Shown here piece after piece: positions 11,459 to 30,155 of a stretch of DNA of 33,252 nt; the stretch's first letter is position 1; the number at the start of each line of letters is the position of its first letter. The notes below the pieces were generated by a model. The model was not told the origin of the DNA, searched no databases, and saw only the letters and a list, made by a program, of their open reading frames with translations. The stretch covers positions 1 through 33,252 of the forward strand of contig JAKACW010000050.1 of assembly GCA_021821045.1 (NCBI GenBank). Reading direction: 5' to 3'. Made by a program: the position numbers and the translations under genes. The DNA comes from Pseudomonadota bacterium. GTDB lineage: Bacteria > Pseudomonadota > Gammaproteobacteria > JAADHS01.

Positions 11459-11489
11459 GATCAGCGGGGTGTTTTATTTCCCGCTGATC
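11459..11489. terminator. Inverted repeat after cysS, possible terminator
   Basis: A perfect 10-bp stem, GATCAGCGGG (11459-11468) with CCCGCTGATC (11480-11489), encloses an 11-base U-rich loop. No U-tract follows, so it is not a standard intrinsic terminator. It could be an mRNA-stabilising hairpin or a protein-binding site upstream of the PBP gene, which starts 30 bases later. Confidence 0.5.
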
Positions 11490-11518: not shown

Positions 11519-14515
11519 ATGTTCAGCCGTCCCTTAGCGTTCTTCAATGTCCCTTGGCGGTCCAAGGCCGCGTGGCTGGCGGCCAGCGTGTTTTTGCTAG
11601 TGCTCGTCACCGCCAACGAGGTTCGCAACTCCAGCCTGCAGGCGCGGGTATTTTCCTCGCTGACGCGCGGCGCCGATTTCGAACTTGGCGAAGGCGCTTC
11701 ATCGCGCATCCTCTTTCCTCGCCATGGACCCTACGACGAGCGCCTGGGATACGCCTCGTTGCCCAAGTTTACGGGTCAGTTGCGAAGCCAGGGGTTCGTT
11801 ATCACGCGGCAAGCGCGCAACAGCGATCCGATGCTGCGATTGATGCAGTGGGGTTTATTTCCACCCTACGCGGAAAAGAATCAAGCGGGCCTGGCCATCA
11901 TCGACCAAGTGGGCAATGCATTTTATCGCTCGCTCTTTCCCTCATTCGCCTATGAGACTTTCGAGGACATCCCTTCTCTAATGGTAAAGTCCTTGCTCTA
12001 CGTCGAGAATCGAGAACTGTTCCACGACGCCGCGCCGACCTTCAATCCTGCCATCGAGTGGGATCGGTTTTTTCTCAGCACTCTGGGCTTTTTTGGGCGG
12101 CGTTTCAGCGATGACGCGGAGAAAGTGTCGGGGGGGTCAACGCTTGCCACCCAATTGGAGAAATTTCGTCACTCGCCGGGAGGCATCACCCACTCCGGAG
12201 CGGAAAAGTTGCGCCAGATGATGTCGGCGAGCGTTCGCGCTTACGTCAATGGCTCCGAAACGTTGGCGGCCCGCCGCAAGATCGCGCTGGACTACGTTAA
12301 TTCGGTACCGCTGTCGGCTGTTCGCGGCTACGGCGAGGTCAACGGTTTGGTCGGCGGAATGTGGGCGTGGTATGGCGTGCCGGTCGAGGCGACCAATGCT
12401 TTTCTCACTCTGCAGCCTGAGTATGGCAGCGATTTCGAGCAGGCGCAGGGCTTGGTGTACAAACAACTGCTGAGCCTGGTGCTCGCGCAGCGACGTCCAT
12501 CGTACTACCTGAGCGGCGATGCGGCTCGCCTCAATGCACTGACCAATGCCTATCTTGAATTGATGATGCGCGACGGTGTCATTCCTCGCCGGTTGTACGA
12601 ATCGGCTCGGCCGATGACGCTGGCTTTCCGCCGGCCGCCTTCGGCGAGCCGTGAGCTGACCCTGCTGGAACGTAAACCGACCACCGCATTGCGCGCCCGC
12701 CTGCTGAGCATGCTTGATCTCAAGGAAGTTTACGACCTCGACAAGTTGGATCTGGAAGCGAGGACGACGATCAAGCGGCCGCTTCAAAATGAAATCACCG
12801 TGAAGCTGGGTGCCCTCAAGTCCCGAGATGGCGTTGCCGCCGCGGGCCTCTACGGCGACCGGCTGTTACGGGAGAATGATGACTTGTCGCCAATCGTTTA
12901 CAGCATGACGCTGTATGAGCGGGTCGGCTCTGCCAACGTGGTGCGGGTTCAGACGGACAATTTCGATGGTCCGTTCAATATCAACGAAGGCGTTAGGCTC
13001 GATCTGGGTTCGACGGCGAAGTTCCGCGCGTTGGCGACCTATCTGGAGATCATTGCCCAGCTCTACGAGCGTTTTAGTCCGCTCGACGCTGCTCAGCTGG
13101 CGGCGATTCCGGTCGACGACAACGACCAGCTGACCCTGTGGGCGGTGGACTATTTGACCCGCACCGCGCGGCCGGAGTTGCCGCGGATGCTCGAAGCCGC
13201 CCTTGACCGCACCTATTCGGCCAATCCGAACGAGCGCTTTTTCACCGGCGGCGGTTTGCACACGTTTCGGAATTTCGAGCCGCGGGATAACAACAAAGTA
13301 ATGACCGTGCGCGAGGCGCTGAACAATTCTGTGAATCTGGTGTTCGTGCGTCTGATGCGGGACGTCGTGCGCTACTACATGTTCCAGGTGCCCGGTTCGA
13401 CGGCGCAAATTCTCGAAGATACCAAGGACGAGCGGCGCACCCGTTATCTGGCGCGCTTCGCGGACAAGGAAGGAACCACGTTCGTGGAGCGTTTTTACCG
13501 CAAGTACCGGCGCAAGGAGCCGGCGGCGATTCTCGACACGCTGATCGGCCCGGAGGCGGGGAAGATCGAGCGCGTGGCGGTGATCTACCGTAGCGTTTCT
13601 CCCGAGCGGGGCTTCGCTGAATTCGCCGGCTATCTGTTGAGTCACGCGCCGGAATTGGGCGAGGTGCAGCTGAGACAACTCTTCGACAAGTACGATCCGG
13701 CCAAGCTCACCTGGCCCGACCGCGGCTTTCTCGCCCGTCTGCATCCGTTGGAATTGTGGACCGCAAAATTCCTGATCGACAACCCGCAGGCTACCCTGGC
13801 GCAGGCGGTTGCGGCCAGCACCGACCATCGCCAGGCGGTGTATCAGTGGTTGTTCAATACCCGCCACAAGAATGTGCAGGATGCGCGCATTAAACAATTG
13901 CTGGAGATCGAGGCCTTTCTGGAGGTGCTCAAGCATTGGAAGGCGTTGCGGTTTCCATTTGACTCGCTGACGCCATCGTATGCTTCGGCGCTGGGCAGTT
14001 CAGGCGATCGGCCGGCCGCCTTGGCGGAGCTTATGGGGATCGTGGTCAACGACGGCGTTTTCTATCCCACGGTCGTCATCGATCAACTGCGCTTTGGTCT
14101 CGACACGCCCTACGAAACGTGGTTCGAACGCCGACCGGCCAAGGGCACCCGGGTGATGACCATGGACGTGGCGGTTGCGTTGCGCACTGCGCTGGCGGGT
14201 GTGGTCGATAAGGGTACGGGCAAACGCGTCGCCGGCGTTTTCAAAGACAGCGCCGGGAGACCGATCATGGTGGGAGGCAAAACCGGTACCGGCGATCATC
14301 GCCGCGAGCGTTACGGGCCGCGGGGAGTCGTGCTGGGCTCGGAAGTGGTGAACCGCACCGCAACGTTCGTGTTCTTCATCGGCGAGCGCCACTTCGGCAC
14401 AATCACGGCCTTCGTTCCCGGGAAGGAGGCGGCAAATTACCGCTTCACTAGCGGACTGCCCGTGCAGTTGCTCAAGACATTGGCGCCGACACTGGCTCCG
14501 TATGTCGCCGATTGA
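11519..14515 (+). CDS. Large divergent class A penicillin-binding protein (GT51 glycosyltransferase plus transpeptidase)
   Basis: A 998-aa bitopic peptidoglycan synthase. One N-terminal transmembrane helix (about 17-33) precedes the GT51 domain: VENRELF with the first catalytic Glu at E163, and GGSTLATQ (205-212). By eye, Q233 in EKLRQMM falls where the second GT51 glutamate is expected. The RKIALDYVNSVPLS segment and GEVNGLVGGMWAWYG are unlike standard PBP1a/1b. The transpeptidase part has SxxK as S498-T-A-K501 (LGSTAKF), SxN as S604-V-N606 and KTG at K921 in GGKTGTGDHR. The 315 residues between SxN and KTG compare with about 125 in E. coli PBP1b, implying an insertion of some 190 residues. 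It should polymerise and crosslink glycan in the periplasm, though the glycosyltransferase activity is uncertain. It is convergent with the Sel1 gene. Confidence 0.88.
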   Translation: MFSRPLAFFNVPWRSKAAWLAASVFLLVLVTANEVRNSSLQARVFSSLTRGADFELGEGASSRILFPRHGPYDERLGYASLPKFTGQLRSQGFVITRQARNSDPMLRLMQWGLFPPYAEKNQAGLAIIDQVGNAFYRSLFPSFAYETFEDIPSLMVKSLLYVENRELFHDAAPTFNPAIEWDRFFLSTLGFFGRRFSDDAEKVSGGSTLATQLEKFRHSPGGITHSGAEKLRQMMSASVRAYVNGSETLAARRKIALDYVNSVPLSAVRGYGEVNGLVGGMWAWYGVPVEATNAFLTLQPEYGSDFEQAQGLVYKQLLSLVLAQRRPSYYLSGDAARLNALTNAYLELMMRDGVIPRRLYESARPMTLAFRRPPSASRELTLLERKPTTALRARLLSMLDLKEVYDLDKLDLEARTTIKRPLQNEITVKLGALKSRDGVAAAGLYGDRLLRENDDLSPIVYSMTLYERVGSANVVRVQTDNFDGPFNINEGVRLDLGSTAKFRALATYLEIIAQLYERFSPLDAAQLAAIPVDDNDQLTLWAVDYLTRTARPELPRMLEAALDRTYSANPNERFFTGGGLHTFRNFEPRDNNKVMTVREALNNSVNLVFVRLMRDVVRYYMFQVPGSTAQILEDTKDERRTRYLARFADKEGTTFVERFYRKYRRKEPAAILDTLIGPEAGKIERVAVIYRSVSPERGFAEFAGYLLSHAPELGEVQLRQLFDKYDPAKLTWPDRGFLARLHPLELWTAKFLIDNPQATLAQAVAASTDHRQAVYQWLFNTRHKNVQDARIKQLLEIEAFLEVLKHWKALRFPFDSLTPSYASALGSSGDRPAALAELMGIVVNDGVFYPTVVIDQLRFGLDTPYETWFERRPAKGTRVMTMDVAVALRTALAGVVDKGTGKRVAGVFKDSAGRPIMVGGKTGTGDHRRERYGPRGVVLGSEVVNRTATFVFFIGERHFGTITAFVPGKEAANYRFTSGLPVQLLKTLAPTLAPYVAD

Positions 14516-24792: not shown

Positions 24793-26982
24793 TTAGCACC
24801 GTTTAAGAATCAATGCTCCCAACGGCGGGATCGTCAGCGACAGCGAATGAGGTTGATTCATCCATGCGATGTCGTCGCCATGAACAACACCATTGCCGAC
24901 GTTGCTGCCGCCGTAGAACTGCGAATCCGAATTCAGCAGCTCCCGATAGGCGCCGCCGCGCGGCACCCCCACCCGGTAATTTGTCCGGGGCACCGGCGTG
25001 AAATTCAGCACGACGATGATCGGTTCGCCGACTTCATCGGTGCGGAAGTAGCTCAGGATGGATTGAGGGGCGTCGTGGCAGTCGATCCAATGAAATCCTC
25101 GCTGTTCGAAATCGAAGCGGTGCAATGAAGGCTCTTCACGATACACGCGATTGAGATCGCCCACGAGCTGCTTCACGCCCTGGTGAAACGGGTATTGCAG
25201 CACCCACCAGTCCAAGGCCGTCGCGTGATTCCATTCCTGTCCTTGGCCGAACTCGCAACCCATGAAGAGCAGCTTTTTGCCGGGATGGGTGAACATGTAG
25301 GTCAGCACCAAGCGCAGGTTGGCGAAACGCTGCCATTCGTCGCCGGGCATTTTGTTCAGCAGGGAACTCTTGCCATGCACGACTTCATCATGGGAGAAGG
25401 GCAGAATGAAATTTTCCGTGTATGCGTAGAGCTGGCTAAACGTCAACATGTCGTGGTGATACTGGCGGTGGATCGGACTATGGGCCATGTACGCCAGCGT
25501 GTCGTTCATCCAGCCCATGTTCCACTTCATGCTGAAACCCAAACCGCCGACCCAGGTCGGACGCGACACCATTGGCCACGCCGTGGACTCTTCGGCCATG
25601 ATCAACGAGCCAGGGAACAGTTCGTGGGTCACGGTGTTCAATTCGCGCAGAAAGTCGATCGCTTCCAGATTTTCCCGGCCGCCGTATTGATTGGGGATCC
25701 ATTCGCCTTCCTTGCGGGAGTAATCCAGATAGAGCATGGATGCCACCGCATCCACCCGCAGCCCGTCGATATGGAACTCTTCCAGCCAGTACACGGCGCT
25801 CGATAACAGATAGTTCTTAACTTCGTTGCGGCCGTAATTAAATATCAGCGTGCCCCAGTCGCGATGCTCGCCGCGGCGCGGATCTTCGTGTTCATATAAC
25901 GCGCTGCCATCAAAGCGCGCCAAGCCGTGGGCGTCCTTGGGGAAATGCCCCGGCACCCAGTCGACGAATACGCCCAGGTCGTGGCGATGACAGTAGTCGA
26001 CGAAATAGCGAAAATCGTCCGGCGTCCCGAAGCGGCTGGTCGGTGCGTAATTGCCGATGATTTGATAGCCCCACGACGCGTCCAGCGGATGTTCCGACAC
26101 CGGCAACAATTCGATGTGCGTGAAGCCCAGCTCTTTTACATAGGGCACCAGGCGGTGCGCCAGTTCGCGATAGGATAAGAAGTCGCCATTGTCGTCTCTT
26201 TGCCACGACCCCAGGTGAACTTCGTAGATGGACATCGGGGTGTGCAGCCAATCCGCTTCGCGGCGCCGGCTCAACCACCCGTTGTCGCCCCAAGTGAAGT
26301 CGCTTGTCGAGCACACAATCGACGCGGTGCTGGGGCGCAATTCGAATTGTTGTGCGTACGGGTCGGATTTGACATGAATCGTGCCGTACTCCCGGTTGCG
26401 CAGTTCGAATTTGTACAAATCGCCTTCGTTCAGGCCCGGGATGAACAGTTCCCACACACCGCAGCCGCCCCGTGAGCGCATGGGGTGGCAGCGGCCATCC
26501 CAGTTGTTGAAATGGCCGATGATGCTGACCCGTTCCGCATTGGGGGCCCAAGTGACGAACAGAACGCCTTTTACGCCATCGACCTCCTTGGTGTGTGCCC
26601 CAAGAACGTTGTAGGCGTGGCGGTGTTTGCCTTCGCCAAACAAATACAAGTCGTAGTCGGAAATTTGAGCCGGGAAACAATACGGATCGTAGGCGCTCAC
26701 GCGGTTCCCGTCGGCGTCGGTCCACTCCAGTTCGTAACGACTGGGCACCTCGTTGGCGGCGCCGTGACCTTCGAACATATCGGTGCCGGCGATGCGTCGC
26801 AGAGTCAGGCCCGACTGCGATACGCGCACCGATTGAGCGCCGGGAATGAAGGCGCGCAGCGTGACTTTTTCGCCGTGGACATGCCGGCCCAGCACCACGA
26901 AGGGGTCGTGATGGCGAGCCTCGATGATGCGCTGGACGTCGGTCGAGTGAGTGCGGGACGAATCGATGTGGCGTGATTCCAT
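24793..26982 (-). CDS. glgB: 1,4-alpha-glucan (glycogen) branching enzyme
   Basis: A GH13 enzyme that makes alpha-1,6 branches in glycogen; 729 aa against 728 in E. coli. The N-terminal half has the carbohydrate-binding CBM48-type domain ([20 protein letters not shown]). The catalytic nucleophile is D411 in [11 protein letters not shown] and the acid/base E464 in MAEEST, six residues later than their E. coli counterparts. The third acidic residue is in [10 protein letters not shown]. The C-terminal beta domain ends GALILKR. It is divergent from glgC across a 227-bp gap, so the glycogen genes are probably controlled from that shared region. Confidence 0.97.
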
Positions 26983-27209
26983 AGTGGCGACTTTGATTTC
27001 GTTGTGGGTTAAATCCGCTACAAAACGCGGCGATTAGCGGATGACAGACGCCCGACGAGTCAGTGTTCGCGCTCGATTAGGACGTTCTTTGTTATGAATC
27101 GTAACGCGCAAGATGATAACATACGGGCAAATAATGAGAGACAGGGTAGAGGTGTCGGGGCCGGCGTGTCGATAGCCAACGACGCGTTTAAAAGATCGGA
27201 GACAGGGCC
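26983..27209. promoter_or_regulatory. Divergent control region between glgB and glgC
   Basis: A gap of 227 bases between the two start codons. It holds an imperfect inverted repeat, ATCCGCT (27013-27019) with AGCGGAT (27036-27042), which may be a decayed REP-like arm or an operator. For glgC a TTGTTA near 27090 with GATGAT 17 bases later is a weak promoter candidate. A GGAG at about 27198 serves the GTG start of glgC. Confidence 0.45.
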
Positions 27210-28493
27210 GTGAAAGAGTTCGTTCTGGGGCAAAATCAAGAATCCCGTTTCGTCAGCCGGCTTACACGCAATACACTCGCGTTGGTTCTCGCCGGCGGGC
27301 GCGGCACGCGACTGAAAGATCTGACGCGCTGGCGGGTAAAGCCCGCGGTGCCCTTCGGCGGCAAGTTCCGCATCATCGATTTCCCGCTATCCAATTGCAT
27401 CAATTCTGGAATTCGCGCCATCGGCGTGCTGACGCAATACAAATCCCACTCGCTGATCCGCCACATTCAACAAGGCTGGAACTATCTGCGCGGTGAGTTC
27501 GGCGAGTTCATCGAAATTCTGCCTGCCCAACAGCGCATCCAGGATTCCTGGTACGCGGGGACCGCCGACGCCATCTATCAGAACTTGGACATCATCCGCA
27601 GCCACAAACCGCAATACGTCTTGATCCTCGCCGGCGATCACATTTACAAAATGGACTACGGTCCGATGATTGCCCACCACGTCGAAACCGGTGCCGACAT
27701 GACCGTGGGCTGCATCGAAGTGCCCCTCGAAAAAGCCAAGGAGTTCGGCGTTATGGCCGTGGCCAGCGACAATCGGGTTTTGCGCTTTCACGAGAAACCG
27801 CAAAACCCCGAGCCGATGCCGGGACGCAGCGATGTGGCCTTGGCGTCCATGGGCATTTACGTTTTCAACACGGACTTTCTCTATCAGCAGCTGATCACCG
27901 ACGCCGACGACGCGGAGTCCAGCCATGACTTCGGCAAAGACATCATTCCTAAAGTCATCGACGAGTACCGCGTGAGCGCGTATTCGTTCCGCGACGTGCA
28001 GTCCAACAAGAAGGCTTACTGGCGCGATGTCGGTACGGTGGATGCGTTCTGGCAAGCCAACATGGAGCTGGTCGGCGTCACGCCCGAGCTGAATCTTTAC
28101 GACAAAGATTGGCCAATCTGGACCTACCAAGAGCAGTTGCCACCGGCGAAGTTTGTCTTCGACGACGACAACCGGCGCGGCATGGCCGTCGATGCCATGG
28201 TGTCCGGCGGGTGCGTCATTTCGGGTTCTGTGGTGCGCCATTCGTTGTTGTTCTCCAACGTGCGCGTCGAAGAGGGGGCCAAAGTGCAAGATTCAGTGGT
28301 CTTGCCCAATGTCACCATCGGACGCGGCTGCCGGGTGCGGCGCGCGGTCATCGACAAGGGCTGCGTGTTGCCCGACGGGTTGGTCATCGGTGAGGATCTG
28401 GAGAAGGATCGCACCCGATTCCATGTGTCCGACACGGGCATCGTGCTGGTCGCACCGGAAATGTTGGGCCAAGAACTCCACTACGTGAGATAG
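27210..28493 (+). CDS. glgC: Glucose-1-phosphate adenylyltransferase (ADP-glucose pyrophosphorylase)
   Basis: Forms ADP-glucose from glucose-1-phosphate and ATP, the committed and usually allosterically controlled step of bacterial glycogen synthesis. 427 aa from a GTG with GGAG upstream. [16 protein letters not shown] is the nucleotide-binding loop; [18 protein letters not shown] carries the lysines of the activator and substrate sites; GTADAIYQN and [12 protein letters not shown] follow. The C-terminal left-handed beta-helix is seen as hexapeptide-like repeats ([30 protein letters not shown]). The TAG stop directly joins a degenerate repeat arm. malQ follows on the same strand after about 210 bases. 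Confidence 0.97.
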
Positions 28494-28572
28494 CGGGAGC
28501 GGCTACTTCCGCGATTAGAATCGGTCCAAATCCCAAGGGCTGCGAAAAAATCGTGGTAGGTTACTGCCCCGC
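28493..28572. repeat. Degenerate REP-like doublet, 80 bp, after glgC
   Basis: The left arm (28493-28517) has tag GCGGGA and a GCGG/CCGC hairpin with altered loop. The inverted second arm (28549-28572) has clearly diverged. The unit keeps the 80-bp length of intact copies. It begins at the last base of the glgC stop codon. From there to malQ nothing else is recognised. Confidence 0.65.
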
Positions 28573-28703
28573 GGGAAGTAGCGCTTTCTTTATTTGTCAC
28601 CATAACAAGCACCCGGTTTAACTCTCGCACGGAACGCCGATACCGGGGTGTCAAGCAAAAACGGACTTTGCATCACATGGCAGCCAGCCGGGACAATAAC
28701 TGG

Positions 28704-30155
28704 ATGAATCAGCGCCGCGCCGGCGTGTTGTTGCATCCGACGTCGTTGCCCGGCAGCGGCCGGCGCGGTGTCTTGGGCCGTCAGGCCTATCATTTCGTCG
28801 ACTGGATGGCGGCCGCCGGCCTCAACGTGTGGCAGACCTTGCCCCTCGGGCCGACCCACGGCGACGGATCACCCTATCAGTGTTTGTCCGCGTATGCCGG
28901 CAGTCCGCGCATGATCAGCCTCGACTTGCTCTATGAACAAGGCTACGTCAACGGCCCGCGCCCGGTCGATGGCGAGGACGACGTGGAAGGGCAGTTGTTG
29001 TCGATCTTCGAATACTGGCGCACCAATCACAGTCAAGACGAAGACGCGCACTTTCAGAACTTTTGCGCGCACAACGCCCATTGGCTGCCGGACTACGCGT
29101 TGTTCATGGCGCTCAAACGGCACCATCATTCTCGTTCCTGGGGTGATTGGCCCAAGCCGCTGCGGGATCGCGAATCGAACGCATTGGCAGAAGCGCGCCA
29201 CAGGTTCGCCCACACCATCGAATACATTGCGTTCGAGCAATTCGTGTTCTTCAAACAATGGCAGGCGCTCAAGCGCTACGCCAACGAGAAGGGGATTTTG
29301 TTGTACGGCGACATTCCGATCTTCGTTGCCTATGACAGCGCCGACGTGTGGGCCAATCGCAAGCGGTTTCTCCTCGACGACAATGGGCAGCCCATCGTGG
29401 TCGCCGGCGTACCGCCGGATTATTTCTCCGCCACCGGTCAACGCTGGGGCAACCCGCTGTATCACTGGGAGACGTTGGAGGGCGAAGGGTTCGAGTGGTG
29501 GCTGCAGCGGATTCGCACCCAGCTCGACATGGTGGACATTCTGCGCATCGATCATTTCCGCGGCTTCGAGGCCTACTGGGAGATCGACGCCCATTGCGCC
29601 ACCGCCGTTGACGGCCGCTGGGTCAAGGCGCCCGGCGAAGCGTTGTTCAAAGCGCTGCGCAAGAAGCTCGGCAAACTGCCGCTGGTGGCCGAGGATCTGG
29701 GTGTCATCACGCCGGAAGTGGATAAACTGCGCGAGAAGTTCGGCCTGCCCGGCATGAAGATTTTGCAGTTCGCCTTCGGCGACAACCATCGCAATCCGTA
29801 CTTGCCTCATCATCATCGCTACGACTTCGTCGTCTATACCGGCACCCACGATAACGACACCACCGTGGGCTGGTTCGACAGCTTGGATCAGGGCAAGCGG
29901 GATCACGTGTTGGAATATCTCGGCCGACCGGGCGAAGCCATGCCATGGCCGATGATCCGTGCGGCGATGGAATCCGTTGCTGTCATGGCGATCGTGCCGA
30001 TGCAGGACTTCCTCGGACTGAATTCCCAGCACCGCATGAATTCGCCCGGCACCACCCAAGGCAACTGGGGCTGGCGCTTTCAGTGGGACATGATCCCGGC
30101 GGATTTGGCTGCGCGCATTCGCCAGCTCACTGATCTATACGGGCGGTCCTTGTAG
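28704..30155 (+). CDS. malQ: 4-alpha-glucanotransferase (amylomaltase)
   Basis: A GH77 enzyme that transfers maltodextrin segments between alpha-1,4-glucans; 483 aa from ATG 28704, giving the family-like MNQRRAGVLLHPTSLPG. In-frame alternatives are ATG 28677 and TTG 28668; a GGA ten bases upstream slightly favours 28704. Motifs: the nucleophile Asp in DILRIDHFRGFEAYWE, the acid/base Glu in VAEDLGVITPEV and the third Asp in YTGTHDNDTT. GNPLYHWE and the C-terminal NSQHRMNSPGTTQGNWGWRF are also typical. It likely works with glgC and glgB on storage glucan. Its TAG stop (30153-30155) is the TAG of a repeat arm's GTAGGA tag. Confidence 0.96.
   Translation: MNQRRAGVLLHPTSLPGSGRRGVLGRQAYHFVDWMAAAGLNVWQTLPLGPTHGDGSPYQCLSAYAGSPRMISLDLLYEQGYVNGPRPVDGEDDVEGQLLSIFEYWRTNHSQDEDAHFQNFCAHNAHWLPDYALFMALKRHHHSRSWGDWPKPLRDRESNALAEARHRFAHTIEYIAFEQFVFFKQWQALKRYANEKGILLYGDIPIFVAYDSADVWANRKRFLLDDNGQPIVVAGVPPDYFSATGQRWGNPLYHWETLEGEGFEWWLQRIRTQLDMVDILRIDHFRGFEAYWEIDAHCATAVDGRWVKAPGEALFKALRKKLGKLPLVAEDLGVITPEVDKLREKFGLPGMKILQFAFGDNHRNPYLPHHHRYDFVVYTGTHDNDTTVGWFDSLDQGKRDHVLEYLGRPGEAMPWPMIRAAMESVAVMAIVPMQDFLGLNSQHRMNSPGTTQGNWGWRFQWDMIPADLAARIRQLTDLYGRSL

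Follow-up and report, generated by a model that had tools for sequence, protein, structure and literature searches.

The gene at positions 11519-14515 of the window, by which we mean the whole stretch of 33,252 nucleotides that was analysed (contig JAKACW010000050.1, from a gammaproteobacterium), encodes a protein resembling class A penicillin-binding proteins (PBPs), and it raises the question of what a GT51 glycosyltransferase domain can still do when Gln stands in the place of its second catalytic Glu. In the class A PBPs that have been studied in depth, both GT51 glutamates count among the residues of the active site: E233 of PBP1b is described as the general base, tuned by K355 and R372 (PMC8119973), E290 is termed catalytic (PMC7400108) and both Glu are given as active-site residues of S. 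aureus PBP2 (PMC12229560). From a natural lineage that selection maintains in many Proteobacteria with a constant Gln in place of one of them, one would learn which residues the chemistry of GT51 cannot do without, and such a family might also reveal PBPs that cross-link without polymerising.

The second catalytic position of the GT51 domain

The initial annotation, made by eye, had placed Q233 at the second catalytic position and kept E163 as the first, and our alignments led to the same assignment. The family alignment comprised 71 members from Proteobacteria and Gemmatimonadota, the window protein included, and the aligned members were 38-51% identical to that protein. Controls came from 34 loci with ordinary class A PBPs, of which a crude motif filter kept 29 and removed 5. 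The first Glu was retained in all 71 members, and the second position was occupied by Gln in 71/71 members versus Glu in 29/29 controls. Profile-profile alignment set Q233 on the second Glu (P 97.6%, E about 3e-12), and a joint MAFFT alignment paired it with the control Glu in 29/29 cases. An ungapped block scan ranked the Q233 register first with a score of 1.7, followed by registers about one helical turn off at -1.5, -2.5 and -2.9. Among the 26 single-sequence hidden Markov model alignments that reached the column, the residue was Q in 16, S in 5, A in 5 and an acid in none. No method put a Glu there; judged from sequence, Q233 occupies the second-Glu position, on which the four alignment methods concur. 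The full-length model, built with four sequences, was not used for placing Q233 because its GT51 part was poor (predicted local distance difference test, pLDDT, mostly <50); this weak GT51 model was aligned to the Aquifex peptidoglycan glycosyltransferase 3d3h with Z 9.5 and a root-mean-square deviation (rmsd) of 4.5 over 140 residues. The coordinates, the reading frame and the motif numbering of the annotation were all recovered, and the gene and the GT51 half of its product are laid out below in window coordinates.

11519..14515, + strand: class A PBP-like gene, a single open frame of 998 aa
11564..11620, + strand: putative membrane helix near the N-terminus, around residues 16-34 (hydropathy peaks at 1.8, at residue 17)
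11699..11953, + strand: pre-GT region, residues 61-145, without UB2H or other Pfam match
11954..12634, + strand: GT51 domain, residues 146-372, from PF00912 above its cut-off, hhalign and the model alignment to 3d3h
12005..12007, + strand: E163, the retained first catalytic Glu (general base position), 71/71
12044..12058, + strand: N176-P-A-I-E180, a rewritten HxG(V/I)D motif (N and P each 71/71; canonical His and Gly each 29/29 in controls)
12131..12163, + strand: motif II, GGSTLATQLEK (205-215), with E214 and K215 invariant and the canonical Asn after the Lys replaced by F/Y/L
12203..12217, + strand: motif III, E229-K-L-R-Q233, canonically R-K-x-x-E (Q233, E/D at 229 and K230 each 71/71; R, K and E each 29/29 in controls)
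12332..12376, + strand: altered motif IV, residues 272-286 (G272, E273 and W284 invariant; D/E at 279 in 70/71)
12488..12502, + strand: motif V, QRRPS (324-328), with R325 replacing the canonical Lys (R in 70/71)
12539..12544, + strand: L341-T342 at the canonical Arg-Arg (R-R in 29/29 controls; in the family L in 67/71 and T in 55/71)

The change at Q233 is accompanied by many others in the same domain, at positions where the controls agree in 29/29 sequences or almost so. The canonical His of motif I is N176 in 71/71 members and the canonical Gly is A or V, the residue after the first Glu has gone from the canonical Asp to N (63/71) or is D, and a canonical Phe is L in 70/71. The canonical Thr of motif II is A in 70/71 and its canonical Asn is F, Y or L in 71/71. 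The sequence after Q233, which the annotation had called atypical, indeed carries six additional residues between motif III and YxN, and motifs IV and V are changed; K355 and R372 of PBP1b would correspond to R325 and T342 of the family. The GT51 residues E163, S207, T208, Q212, K215 and K230 are retained and invariant in the family, E214, E273 and W284 are newly invariant (71/71) and H218 nearly so (70/71). The window protein itself deviates from its family by G at 279 (D/E in 70/71) and E at 347 (Arg in 63/71). An altered glycosyltransferase activity, already suggested in the annotation, would be the most economical reading of the invariant Glu-to-Gln change and the other lost signature residues.

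Members shared a mean pairwise identity of 0.54 over the GT51 domain and of 0.57-0.62 over the transpeptidase core; the values for the large and the small insertion were 0.45 and 0.39, and 29 of the 227 GT51 positions were invariant in the family. The ratio of non-synonymous to synonymous substitution rates (dN/dS) of GT51 was 0.03-0.18 in 10 of 13 close pairs with usable dS (unsaturated or moderate); dS was not computable for the pairs L045/L047 and L065/L072, and the pair L073/L075 (dN/dS 0.04) has a dS of 1.88. This low dN/dS, together with conservation near that of the transpeptidase core, shows that the domain is no decaying relic; the altered site is constrained and not drifting.

The transpeptidase half and the extent of the family

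The transpeptidase motifs are complete, with S498, K501, S604, N606, K921, T922, G923 and D926 each present in 71/71 members, and from the three intact motifs the D,D-transpeptidase would be a working one. What sets this half apart is two insertions.

13010..13021, + strand: SxxK, S498-T-A-K501 (71/71)
13064..13204, + strand: first transpeptidase insertion, about residues 516-562, with edges estimated from motif spacing
13328..13336, + strand: SxN, S604-V-N606 (71/71)
13382..13888, + strand: second transpeptidase insertion, about residues 622-790, predicted all-helical, with edges estimated from spacing and model
14279..14296, + strand: KTGTGD, residues 921-926 (K, T, G and D each 71/71)

The spacing from SxxK to SxN, which the annotation had also described as long, is 106 residues in the window protein and 103-110 in the family versus 57-68 in the 29 controls. 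The spacing from SxN to KTG is 317 residues in the window protein and 313-332 in the family, and 125-188 (median 147) in the controls, in one of which the KTG column was gapped. The earlier estimate that this span is about 190 residues longer than in E. coli PBP1b therefore agrees with the shortest controls (125-126) and becomes about 170 against the median, both figures being differences from these controls. Residues 604-818, modelled alone with three relatives, gave 12 helices and no strand with a mean pLDDT of 82.2 (about 93 in the core) and a predicted template modelling score of 0.72, so that the large insert is confidently predicted as a compact all-helical domain. Its best VIA match in the PDB was weak (Z 4.4, rmsd 10.7, 105 aligned), as was its best Foldseek match (E 1.9), although weak matches of predicted folds do not prove a new fold. 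Partner binding by this helical insert, as the annotation had suggested, is plausible from the model; the one set of partner data found in the literature searched concerns the probable P. aeruginosa orthologue PA0788, described below.

The 998-aa protein exceeds both Pfam cut-offs, with 38.7 bits for PF00912 where 27 are required and 31.8 bits for PF00905 where 22.1 are required, and at E<=0.01 PF00912 was found in 42/42 members and PF00905 in 38/42. No UB2H match was found by Pfam in the 42 members at the same threshold, and residues 61-145 were of low confidence in the full-length model. The window protein stayed below the NCBIfam cut-offs of PBP_1a_fam (31.6 against 508.75 bits), PBP_1b (17.2 against 717.75), PBP_1c (10.6 against 494.2) and PbpC (22 against 900); no curated NCBIfam model fits the family and no PBP subfamily of NCBIfam or Pfam covers the insert. 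The phmmer search of the window protein against PDB sequences gave 0 matches at E<=0.1, and the family profile aligned significantly to PBP1b only in the C-terminal part of the transpeptidase. The canonical class A PBPs, such as E. coli PBP1a and PBP1b and S. aureus PBP2, have the same domain order with an N-terminal membrane helix and share with the family the first GT51 Glu, the core of motif II, the Lys of motif III and the SxxK, SxN and KTG motifs. Unlike them, the family has Gln for the second Glu, no His in motif I, no canonical Asn in motif II and no Arg pair, and it carries the two transpeptidase insertions. Class B PBPs (PBP2, PBP3) share the transpeptidase fold, to which the model aligned with Z 10-11 (6p55_B: Z 10.8, rmsd 5.4, 231 aligned), but they have a class B pedestal instead of the GT51 domain.

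The proposal that the gene belongs to a subfamily of its own was borne out by 71 full-length members with a common architecture and the Gln. A profile of 42 sequences searched against 299 genomes matched 16 of them at E<=1e-10, all full-length and above 1400 bits, and no intermediate between the family and other proteins was found at that threshold. Because the second active-site position holds Gln in 71/71 members, the family is filed as divergent: by its sequences it is a class A PBP-like subfamily and not a canonical member, absent from NCBIfam and Pfam. No description of such a subfamily was found in the literature searched (open-licence PMC articles), and the gene apparently represents a branch of class A PBPs undescribed so far.

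The family gene was present in 7/369 genomes of the class sample and 28/398 of the phylum sample, the window's genome being counted in both, and in 42/101 genomes among the relatives of one carrier. The scan of genome contigs gave three loci, from two Gemmatimonadota metagenome-assembled genomes and one alphaproteobacterial one, and 15 records of the plasmid collection matched, 12 of them with at least 80% query coverage (Cupriavidus, Caballeronia, Sphingobium and an "Aeromonas caviae" record). The last, NZ_AP026896.1, is filed as a plasmid, and its size of 4.94 Mb points to a chromosome or to wrong labelling of the record. In Cupriavidus metallidurans CH34 the member lies at 129560-132535 of record NC_007974.2. 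In most larger groups the family tree agrees with taxonomy: there are 22 label changes where 21 would be the least possible, with splits of f189 and of Cupriavidus. Two family members, 46% and 40% identical to the window protein, occur in one genome (G807, contigs C292 and C263). A phage or mobile-element gene was also considered and rejected, since no match was found in 50,697 phage records or in viral contigs.

A possible accessory cross-linker and its alternatives

We give an even chance to the reading in which the protein works as a transpeptidase in an accessory role: its GT51 domain would go on binding lipid-linked glycan, with an altered or slow polymerase activity, and its insert would dock partners. 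A divergent class A PBP with one N-terminal helix as its anchor would have had its GT51 active site rebuilt and then fixed. Since E163, the Ser, Thr, Gln and Lys of motif II and the Lys of motif III are kept, the donor/acceptor groove of GT51 has probably retained its binding of lipid-linked glycan. With the second carboxylate, the His of motif I and the two Arg missing, polymerisation would be slow, non-processive or otherwise changed. The kept general base and groove residues, combined with purifying selection, suggest that GT51 still meets a substrate. The intact transpeptidase and the ordinary PBPs in the genome (three further GT51 proteins in the window's genome with 156.9-218.1 bits for PF00912 versus 42.5 for the 998-aa protein) would fit an accessory cross-linker working alongside the cell's ordinary class A PBPs, which would make most of the glycan that it uses. 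For other wall enzymes, the helical insert next to the transpeptidase site could then act in docking or gating.

Several points weigh against the accessory cross-linker. The main doubt about the Gln comes from the block scan, in which registers displaced by one helical turn score only about 3-4 units lower. The acid at 229, one helical turn before Q233, might compensate and give normal activity. A reduced glycosyltransferase activity is read from the sequence, and the GT51 part of the model is poor. No recurrent neighbour and no additional SEDS gene points to a partner. According to a review (PMC4632607), class A PBPs need their own continuing glycan synthesis for transpeptidation, a dependence that would fit a weak GT51 badly unless another polymerase supplies the strands. 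This dependence is also the strongest argument against a dead GT51, and the altered domain was therefore ranked above the dead one. We regard as unlikely a GT51 domain that is dead as an enzyme and has no role but to shape the protein or tether it, for instance to nascent glycan or membrane, while the whole acts like a class B PBP. The loss of the second Glu in 71/71 members, with the His, the Asn and the Arg pair lost too, is what a dead domain would predict, and PF00912 scored only 42.5 and 53.2 bits in two members versus at least 142.1 in the other 75 of 77 GT51 matches from 36 genomes; but a general-base Glu kept in 71/71 is odd for a purely structural domain, the purifying selection is strong, and there is no additional SEDS polymerase, with two SEDS copies in 31/33 carriers (the others have 1 and 3, the third copy being weak) and in 18/20 non-carriers (the others 1 and 3).

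A normal-speed lipid II polymerase, in which the acid at 229, E214 or E273 substitutes for the Glu or the Gln itself suffices, seems slightly less probable again. Position 229 is D/E in 71/71 family members versus Arg in 29/29 controls; moving the register by 4 places this acid on the second Glu with an only moderately worse score (-2.5 versus 1.7), and E214 and E273 are likewise constant in 71/71. The shifted register was chosen by no alignment method, however, and it misplaces the motif III Lys that is kept in 71/71 members and 29/29 controls; the other canonical signature residues are lost as well. It is doubtful, more so than normal polymerisation, that the GT51 chemistry as a whole has changed in this widespread branch, so that one carboxylate, the acid moved by one helical turn to 229 and the new invariant residues serve a different glycan reaction. 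A helical domain with a new fold would couple that reaction to cross-linking; examples of the reaction would be the joining of strands, the capping of strand ends or a lipid II transfer without the second Glu. The narrower proposal of a new reaction such as cutting or re-joining glycan strands with one Glu, as in lysozyme-like folds, is highly improbable: one invariant Glu does sit on a lysozyme-like fold and E214, H218, E273 and W284 form a coherent new set, but no similarity to a hydrolase family was found in the searches, which covered Pfam, NCBIfam, PHROGs and PDB sequences only.

A probable Pseudomonas relative and the genomic neighbourhood

The Pseudomonas aeruginosa protein PA0788 is probably a direct family member and an orthologue, judged from its size and gene order. 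Two loci of GTDB family f160, which is probably Pseudomonadaceae from its size, abundance and gene content, have an amino-acid permease near the family gene (L091) and an SSF symporter with an isochorismatase gene (L088), an arrangement that fits the PA0783-PA0789 order. The likeness comes from gene order and from the published description, the described protein having a similar size and a transglycosylase domain.

In published reports, PA0788 is called a 'possible penicillin-binding protein' of 116.4 kDa with a transglycosylase domain and is lowered in two strains when meropenem is at the highest level tested (PMC9948630). It came down in pulldowns together with RlpA and SltB1, both lytic transglycosylases, and proved insoluble on expression (PMC9712689); it was negatively regulated by PA2206 (PMC3557286), and, again named a penicillin-binding protein, it received five hits, all non-synonymous, in hypermutable cystic fibrosis lineages (PMC4199492). 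No enzymatic study of PA0788 was found in the literature searched. Should PA0788 belong to the family, this uncharacterised PBP would gain a structural hypothesis.

The surroundings of the gene vary among loci. Besides the PBP itself, the largest BLAST cluster of open reading frames (ORFs) spanned 4/50 loci (a methyltransferase in four f160 genomes), and a conserved operon partner was rejected because no non-PBP cluster exceeded that number; the ORF selection had omitted the PBP in three loci (L005, L086 and L102), probably displaced by longer antisense ORFs. No recurring wall-related family was found in a Pfam scan of 108 neighbour proteins among the 145 listed. On the conjugative plasmid pMSHV of Sphingobium herbicidovorans (L015, 5884-18812) the relative lies beside genes for rodA, a universal stress protein, a DksA-like protein and a K+/H+ antiporter, and on a Cupriavidus sp. 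USMAHM13 plasmid (L016, 7977-13903) it adjoins lon and hsp20. A dedicated SEDS partner, prompted by the adjoining rodA on pMSHV, was rejected as a general rule because of the equal SEDS copy number, and the idea of a stress island drawn from these two plasmids was not upheld, since chromosomal loci were without such a pattern.

In the window, the PBP gene is preceded by two genes that we take to be gltX and cysS from recognition of their translations, and it is followed by a gene for a Sel1-repeat protein on the opposite strand. A perfect 10-bp inverted repeat with an 11-base spacer (11459-11489) lies between the cysS-like gene and the PBP start; it has no T-run directly after it and may be an operator or an RNA hairpin. 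Elsewhere in the window, positions 334-2253 encode a protein with an immune-inhibitor-A-like M6 peptidase domain, and positions 24793-30155 hold a glycogen gene cluster with a branching enzyme, a GlgC-like nucleotidyl transferase and a 4-alpha-glucanotransferase.

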